A stretch of DNA of 64,000 bases from Microbacterium sp. cf332 (GTDB lineage Bacteria > Actinomycetota > Actinomycetes > Actinomycetales > Microbacteriaceae), in the NCBI RefSeq assembly GCF_900102175.1, contig NZ_FNKN01000002.1:496001-560000 (forward strand). The letters are read 5' to 3'. Shown here one piece after another: positions 2,670 through 7,001 of the stretch. Under the pieces are notes generated by a model. The model did no database searches. It had not been told where the DNA came from and was given only the letters and a program-made list of their open reading frames with translations. Numbering within the stretch: position 1 is the first letter of the stretch; each line of letters starts with the position of its first letter. The translations under genes were made by a program, and so were the position numbers.

Positions 2670-2697
2670 GGCTTGTTACCGGTTCCCGGGCAATACC
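2670..2697 (+). promoter_or_regulatory. ribonucleic antiterminator (RAT) of LicT/BglG type
   Basis: The 28-nt element starts GGCTTGTTAC and ends GGGCAATACC, with a short CGG/CCG distal stem closed by a 3-nt loop. It matches the known sac/bgl/lic RAT pattern (GGATTGTTAC, 3-bp stem, GGCAAAACC) at nearly every conserved position. It sits between the promoter and a gene encoding a LicT-type RNA-binding protein. A competing hairpin follows: 2699-2705 pairs with 2712-2718, and ATACC 2693-2697 can pair with GGTAT 2732-2736, which overlaps the Shine-Dalgarno of the next gene. There is no U-tract, so control could act on translation rather than termination. Confidence 0.7.
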
Positions 2698-2741
2698 GAT
2701 CCGTCGGAGTAGACGGATTCACCGTCCCAGAGGTATCGCCC

Positions 2742-3566
2742 ATGATCGTCCGCCGTGTGCTCAACAACAGCGTCGTCGACGCCCTCGACGACGCGATGCG
2801 CGAGGTCATCGTGCTCGGTCGCGGGATCGGCTTCCGCGCTCAGCCGGGCGACACGATCGACGCGACGGCGATCGAGAAAGTCTTCCGGCTCGACGACAGC
2901 GCTCAGGGCAGCCGACTGGCGCAGGTCGCGGCCGACGTGCCGGCCGAGATCCTCGCCGTGACCGACGAGATCGTGACGCTCGCACGCGAGCAGCTCACCG
3001 AGAAGCTCAGCGATTCGGTCTACGCCGCGCTCGCCGACCACATCGCCTTCGCGGTGCACCGCGTACGCGAGAACATCGACCTCGCGTCGGCGCTCGAGGC
3101 CGATGTGCGCCGCTTCTACCCGAAGGAATACGCGGTCGCCAGCAACGCGCTGCCGCTCGTCGAGGCCGCCACCGGGGTCGCGATGCCGGTGGCGGAGGCC
3201 GCGAACATCGCACTGCACCTCATCACCGCCGAGGTGGGCGGCGGTGACGGATCGGCGGCGGCCCTGACGAGCTTCACGCAGGACGTCCTCGACATCGTCC
3301 GGCTGCACTTCGGCATCGTCTACGCCGACGACGACCCCGCGTACGCCCGGTTCGCCACGCACGTCCGCTACTTCGCGCAGCGCGTGCTCGCCGGCACCGT
3401 GATCGAGCGCGACGACGATGAGCTGATGGCCCTGCTGCGCCGCCAGCTGCCCCACGTCTTCGCGGCGATCGACCGTATCGAGGCCTACGTCCGCGAAGCC
3501 CACCACCACACGATGACCTCGACCGAGAAGGTCTACATCGCCATGCACGTCAGTCGCTTCGTCTGA
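2742..3566 (+). CDS. licT: BglG/LicT-family transcription antiterminator
   Basis: 274 residues with the family's three-domain order: CAT RNA-binding domain (about 1-56), PRD1 (about 70-165) and PRD2 (about 170-274). H100 and H106 in PRD1 and H269 near the C-terminus fall at or near the positions of PTS-phosphorylated histidines in LicT. Such proteins bind RAT RNA and, depending on phosphorylation by HPr and EII, allow expression of beta-glucoside genes. ATG 2742 follows AGAGG at 2729-2733; an earlier ATG at 2673 would lie inside the RAT and is rejected. It heads the operon with the PTS permease and phospho-beta-glucosidase and probably controls its own mRNA. Confidence 0.92.
   Translation: MIVRRVLNNSVVDALDDAMREVIVLGRGIGFRAQPGDTIDATAIEKVFRLDDSAQGSRLAQVAADVPAEILAVTDEIVTLAREQLTEKLSDSVYAALADHIAFAVHRVRENIDLASALEADVRRFYPKEYAVASNALPLVEAATGVAMPVAEAANIALHLITAEVGGGDGSAAALTSFTQDVLDIVRLHFGIVYADDDPAYARFATHVRYFAQRVLAGTVIERDDDELMALLRRQLPHVFAAIDRIEAYVREAHHHTMTSTEKVYIAMHVSRFV

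Positions 3567-7001
<3,435 letters not shown>

Follow-up and report, generated by a model that had tools for sequence, protein, structure and literature searches.

Proteins of the BglG/SacY/LicT family are the textbook example of protein-directed transcription antitermination, and conserved PRD histidines are among their marks. The RNA element of these systems, the ribonucleic antiterminator (RAT), has the consensus GGnTTGTTAC...GGCAAnACC and folds into a hairpin with two asymmetric internal loops. Judged by its title, the work of Gordon et al. reportedly raises roles of RATs beyond antitermination; the proposal is said to have been one of elongation or stability and not of masking of the Shine-Dalgarno (SD) sequence. 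Among the matches listed in the literature search, most subscription papers lying outside it, no description of SD masking by a BglG/SacY/LicT RAT was found. In an excerpt of PMC4347634 the Bgl/Sac family is classed among the stabilising antiterminators, and the Rfam family bglG-cis-reg (RF03530), according to part of its entry, has been described from Bacillota as the leader of bglG/licT operons. RNA switches that act on the ribosome are described for Actinobacteria in two further sources, each represented by an extract: translational T-boxes, in which SD-masking hairpins lie upstream of ileS (PMC1262725), and ANTAR RNAs, which act on translation or transcription (PMC8164766).

The licT operon and its RAT

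The stretch of DNA that was analysed, called the window below, comprises 64,000 nt of the forward strand of Microbacterium sp. cf332 (GCF_900102175.1, NZ_FNKN01000002.1 positions 496,001-560,000; the host genome, G000, is 3.27 Mb), and all coordinates are positions in it. Near its beginning lies an operon in which licT comes first, followed by EIIBCA and GH1, with the following features:

2635-2640, + strand: -35-like hexamer TTGCGG, weak, recognised by eye, 17 nt before the -10-like hexamer
2658-2663, + strand: -10-like hexamer TACGCT, 6 nt before the RAT; TAnnnT stands at this spacing in orthologs
2670-2697, + strand: RAT, presumed LicT binding site (pattern match, fold, kept in orthologs)
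2742-3566, + strand: licT/bglG-type regulator gene, 274 aa, CAT_RBD and PRDs (domain search, alignment to LicT)
3580-3607, + strand: intergenic motif GGCGCGCTCAGGGACCTCCGCGTCAGCC, conserved between licT and EII in orthologous operons
3634-5538, + strand: PTS EIIBCA (domain search), presumably of beta-glucoside type
5535-7001, + strand: GH1 glycosidase (domain search), probably a 6-phospho-beta-glucosidase

Domain search of the licT product gave a CAT_RBD (E 4.5e-19) followed by a PRD match (E 6.8e-30) in two stretches, which is the composition of the BglG/SacY/LicT family. The four PRD histidines line up with the LicT chain 1tlv in the PDB alignment. As judged from these alignments, the sensor parts of the protein (CAT_RBD, PRDs and the four PRD histidines) are intact. 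The ATG at 2742 is likely the start of licT, because the CAT_RBD match begins at residue 1. The EIIBCA is taken to be of beta-glucoside type because the GH1 gene adjoins it. Directly upstream of the licT leader, on the same strand, a GH36 alpha-galactosidase gene is present (328-2592).

A preliminary description of this DNA had reported a near-perfect RAT, placed immediately after a good promoter and before a LicT-type gene. The RAT pattern was indeed matched without mismatch at 2670-2697 (GGCTTGTTACCGGTTCCCGGGCAATACC), 44 nt upstream of the licT ATG, and this was the sole match in the 64 kb when up to 3 mismatches were allowed. Shuffled sequences contained 0.03 matches on average, 3 of 100 shuffles having one. 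The best fold of the isolated element is close to the RAT hairpin (frequency 0.468), with 59 of 200 shuffles folding equally well, and its upper stem shows compensatory changes when the leaders are examined with RNAalifold. By its agreement with the consensus, its hairpin and the adjacent CAT_RBD/PRD gene the element is a RAT, and LicT is presumed to bind it.

The promoter fared differently, as the consensus scan found none at the licT leader. What stood of this part of the description is the -10-like hexamer: TAnnnT precedes the RAT by 6 nt in 7 of 8 leaders and by 7 nt in the eighth. Because this hexamer sits 6-7 nt upstream in all of them, the RNA is likely to start at the RAT or slightly upstream of it.

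No Rfam family reached its gathering score in the 64-kb window. Within 2600-2860 there was no match to any family up to an E-value of 10, and RF03530 was likewise absent at that level. The RF03530 test hardly discriminates, since the scores of Enterococcus loci, 24.8-44.3 bits, stay under the 80-bit cut-off, and since a RAT with a U-tract elsewhere in the same genome (L001) is unmatched too.

The competing helix and its conservation

The 3' arm of the RAT is complementary to the region immediately before the licT start codon. The elements of this second structure are:

2688-2697, + strand: RAT 3' arm GGGCAATACC, the anti-Shine-Dalgarno arm, pairs with 2732-2741
2698-2719, + strand: inner hairpin that brings the arms together, ATCCGTC (2699-2705) with GACGGAT (2712-2718), from folding
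2729-2733, + strand: Shine-Dalgarno AGAGG, 8 nt before the ATG
2732-2741, + strand: masking arm GGTATCGCCC, pairs with the RAT 3' arm, holds the GG of the SD and abuts the start codon

The helix between 2688-2697 and 2732-2741 consists of nine pairs and one mismatch (A2692.C2737), and its second arm spans the GG of the SD and ends at the base preceding the ATG. The preliminary description had paired ATACC (2693-2697) with GGTAT (2732-2736) over the AGAGG; these positions are correct and the pairing is longer than was described. As predicted from sequence and folding, the RAT and the masking fold are mutually exclusive and the latter covers the GG of the SD and reaches the start codon, which is the arrangement of a translational switch. 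Taken by itself, the window leader shows moderately unusual complementarity: within the last 12 nt, 24 of 50,000 shuffles had as many as 8 of 9 positions complementary, and the longest exact complementary run, 5 nt, was equalled by 906 of 20,000. The fold energies of five stretches around the leader are ordinary (z -0.12 to -1.97).

Orthologs were sought by protein, blind to the leader, in 285 sampled genomes of the genus. A match was present in 77 of them; seven matches are orthologs, 77-100% identical, and no other match exceeds 38%. All 7 leaders contain the RAT arm GGCAATAC[C/T] facing GGTAT[T/C]GCC just before the start codon. Four actinobacterial records (L005-L008), from a set of 16 loci of which the other 12 are Bacillota, match four of the seven in their leaders. 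The same RAT and masking arm, in front of a GTG start, were found elsewhere in the order, in a 51% identical ortholog from a different family (G822). Lack of RAT conservation in relatives had been named beforehand as an argument against the switch; the element is kept in each of these orthologs.

When seven leaders were compared position by position without gaps (G059 was dropped, being nearly identical to the window), the 9-nt masking arm was 97% identical. A 16-nt stretch whose end lies four bases upstream of the arm was 29% identical, which puts the neighbouring leader sequence at chance level. In the same operons the 9 nt that precede EII gave 50%, and third codon positions over licT codons 1-20 gave 68%. 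A gapped alignment reveals short shared blocks in the middle of the leader, such as GTC...GAC of the inner hairpin; the window and L005 have the same inner hairpin, and several orthologs have one of different sequence at the same place.

RNAalifold recovered the masking helix unprompted, together with the RAT upper stem. In the helix 97.2% of 72 cells pair, compared with 20-54% when it is slid by 1-3 columns, a control over which structures picked from sequences tend to win. The masking helix showed no covariation: both partners changed in 0 pairs and 7 of 9 pairs never vary, and the pair-shuffle control is uninformative because the pairs hardly vary. The A.C mismatch is carried by the window and G059. 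That no covariation is visible follows from the RAT arm, which hardly varies; if LicT fixes this arm its invariance is expected, and covariation hence gives no support.

An arm that is invariant but for one position, in a helix that does not covary, could also be kept for another reason, for instance as a translation enhancer or as the target of a protein or small RNA, and its match to the RAT would then be coincidental. Little credence is given to such a coincidence for the arm GGTATTGCC, since 8 or 9 of the 9 positions are complementary to the RAT arm in all 8 leaders, a level that 0-24 of 50,000 shuffles attained per leader, and since the arm is not kept before the EII of the same operons.

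As the RAT-bound fold gave an ambiguous picture of SD accessibility, the SD being still partly paired elsewhere in several leaders even with the RAT formed, opening energy was used as the measure. Opening the stretch from SD to AUG is predicted to cost 7.3-11.4 kcal/mol in the free RNA versus 3.5-7.9 kcal/mol with the RAT formed, and RAT formation lowers the cost by 1.5-6.5 kcal/mol in 8 of 8 leaders. Shuffles of the stretch from RAT to start gave an equal or larger gain in 2, 8, 1, 6, 19, 3, 1 and 1 of 200 cases for the eight leaders, the smallest gain (1.5 kcal/mol, 19 of 200) being that of L007. With 33 nt of coding sequence included, 8.5-10 pairs are expected between the RAT and the region before the start in each leader. 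Shuffles that keep the SD reached this pairing in 22, 15, 3, 3, 1, 5, 3 and 6 of 300 cases. The same test is weaker without coding sequence (114, 35, 4, 17, 12, 14, 8 and 25 of 300), when masking is weakest in the window (5.8 pairs, 114 of 300 shuffles as high). In the best fold of fragment 2690-2765 the masking helix is absent.

Two more distant orthologs deviate. They are among 18 genomes with CAT_RBD in 249 sampled genomes of the family. G366 and G367 are 50-51% identical to licT in protein sequence and keep the GGCTTG RAT, and the G367 leader is the same or nearly the same in two further genomes. Neither the masking arm nor its exact pairing was found in their leaders, and the T runs are 3 in G367 and 1 in G366. 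When folded, the SD pairs with the apical part of the RAT in G367 and, only if coding sequence is left out, with the RAT 5' strand in G366. RAT formation yields a gain of 1.9 kcal/mol in G367, equalled by 15 of 200 shuffles, and none in G366 (138 of 200). These two leaders speak against a universal rule and, at most mildly, for a common theme.

In the class, a covariance-model search of 394 genomes gave nothing convincing beyond the window (82.5 bits), the next best match scoring 28.1 bits; 64 genomes had a match at E up to 1, and weak members may be lost to the strict filters. At least one of the weak matches is the U-tract RAT of the same genome as the window (18.0 bits). Seven other matches (L209-L215) were dismissed, as none has a licT-like start.

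The intergenic motif between licT and EII, GGCGCG(C)[T/C]CAGG...CCGCGTCAGCC, recurs in all 8 orthologous operons, that of the other family (G822) included. It has 1 match in the own genome, and a near-repeat GCGTCAG lies within several copies. The motif was not seen 3' of licT in G366 or G367, and the folding of three stretches gave no clear support for an RNA structure in it.

U-tracts at other RATs of the order

Between the RAT end and position +15, T runs reach 2 and no more in all 8 leaders, the one at 2670 among them, as expected from the earlier remark that a U-tract is missing. An intrinsic terminator with U-tract overlapping the RAT is not present at the 2670 leader. RATs elsewhere in the order were collected from 396 sampled genomes, 65 of which have CAT_RBD; all these places except G615 and G170 were scanned. 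This upstream scan covered 133 loci, of which three (L060, L075 and L076) had a false anchor at a contig end, and it overlooked the G366 RAT, so that further RATs may be missed. From 46 loci picked by RAT sequence and not by U-tract, 45 GGAT-type RATs were drawn, many nearly identical to one another. In 45 of 45, one of them in the own genome, five or more consecutive T occur within 110 nt. The remaining locus (L113) lies outside the GGAT pattern and was left out; its U-tract is visible by eye.

These counts bear on the possibility that the leader works by ordinary transcription antitermination, the same hairpin stopping transcription just inside licT as a terminator that lacks a U-tract. The competing hairpin does have the usual RAT/terminator topology, and U-tract-free termination has been argued for in mycobacteria: going by the titles, Ahmad 2020 and Unniraman 2001 reportedly concern termination of this kind. 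Against it stands Czyz 2014, which is said, also by title, to hold that the mycobacterial polymerase requires a U-tract. A standard terminator is available yet unused at the licT leader, because the GGAT-type RATs, that of the own genome included, have T runs of at least 5. Moreover, a terminator does not account for a conserved arm that holds the GG of the SD and stops either directly at the start codon or one to two C short of it. We regard this explanation as unlikely. Non-canonical terminators are discussed in a section of PMC12288462.

The hairpin could instead be a cleavage site, for RNase III or otherwise, with LicT altering processing or decay of the RNA and not ribosome access. A precedent is NagY of Enterococcus faecalis, for which an excerpt of PMC12502629 states that optimal induction requires RNase III cleavage of the 5' UTR. 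A switch in stability is nevertheless very improbable here, as it leaves unexplained that in all 8 leaders the masking arm overlies the SD and adjoins the start codon.

RATs of both kinds, with U-tract and with SD masking, exist together in the own genome, in G059 (U-tract RAT L029) and in G822. In the own genome the former (L001, minus strand, 742 downwards, G000:C6:946564) is a textbook RAT with a terminator stem and seven T, and a second LicT-type gene precedes it. The genome also has a third CAT_RBD gene (L003/L252), 3' of a GH1 gene, near which no RAT was detected in the 8 kb read. G822 (L254) has two further RATs, at index 576 (+) and 6122 (-), with T runs of 5 and 6.

In family f3 a RAT variant, [T/C]GGGTGTTACTG...CAGGCATnACC, is found before CAT_RBD genes (L149, L151, L152, L153, L154, L159, L163, L164 and L166). 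None of these 9 leaders has a T run above 4. All 9 carry GCTC-RWYGAG-GAGC over the SD, a small stem that is formed in the best fold of 7. They were not adopted as the same switch, since no general RAT-SD exclusion is evident. A missing U-tract alone is therefore no proof of mechanism, because these nine leaders lack the SD-masking pairing as well.

Proposed operation and comparison with known systems

The comparative and thermodynamic evidence points to translational control. We consider it probable that the licT leader is a LicT-operated translational switch, in which binding of LicT would free the ribosome site. The suggestion in the preliminary description that the RNA switch might act on translation initiation is supported by the leaders of all 7 genus orthologs and of G822 from another family, which combine the RAT with the SD-masking arm and have no U-tract. 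The two structures, their mutual exclusion and their joint conservation follow from sequence and folding; in the following scheme we infer that LicT binds, that the PTS signals to it, that translation is what responds and that polarity reaches the downstream genes. Transcription would begin at the RAT. If there is no inducer, the PTS presumably keeps LicT inactive and the RAT would not be held. Its free 3' arm would then pair with GGTAT[T/C]GCC, from the GG of the SD to the start codon, and ribosomes would be excluded from licT. With a beta-glucoside present, active LicT would clamp the RAT and the arm would be withdrawn, allowing licT to be translated in a positive autoregulation. Reduced polarity would lead to expression of EIIBCA and GH1; control of EII needs polarity or another element because EII starts 67 nt after licT.

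Somewhat tentatively, the BglG/SacY/LicT proteins may be not only antiterminators: the RAT switch may have been rewired to translation in Actinomycetes with the RAT 3' arm as anti-SD, perhaps repeatedly, since the leaders of G367, G366 and the f3 RAT variant are without U-tracts and their SDs possibly lie in other structures. If this is true, the same protein-RNA lock would sit on ribosome access, which would mean that the output of the switch is easily exchanged while the sensor is retained. Genomes with both versions allow a side-by-side comparison of the outputs in one cell.

The closest known system is the RAT-terminator of LicT, BglG and SacY (bgl, lic, sac). It is alike in the sequence and fold of the RAT, in the adjacent regulator with CAT_RBD and PRDs, in the PTS EII and glycosidase downstream and in the RAT 3' end that is common to the competing hairpin. 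It differs in the U-tract that follows the hairpin there, whereas here the hairpin masks the SD up to the start codon. RF03530 is alike as a leader of bglG/licT operons and differs in that it has no match here. The RATs without terminators of Gordon et al. would, by the title, share roles beyond antitermination and are reportedly without SD masking. In the ANTAR systems, as far as extracts of PMC8164766 and PMC8934654 describe them, an antiterminator protein family likewise has RNA targets over ribosome sites in Actinobacteria, and the RNA-binding domain and the RNA motif are different. The actinobacterial ileS T-box, according to the excerpt mentioned above, resembles the licT leader in that a terminator-type switch has been turned into a hairpin over the SD; it differs in that the RNA there senses tRNA without an antiterminator protein. 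By analogy, translational T-boxes are a direct precedent for a rewiring of the RAT switch.
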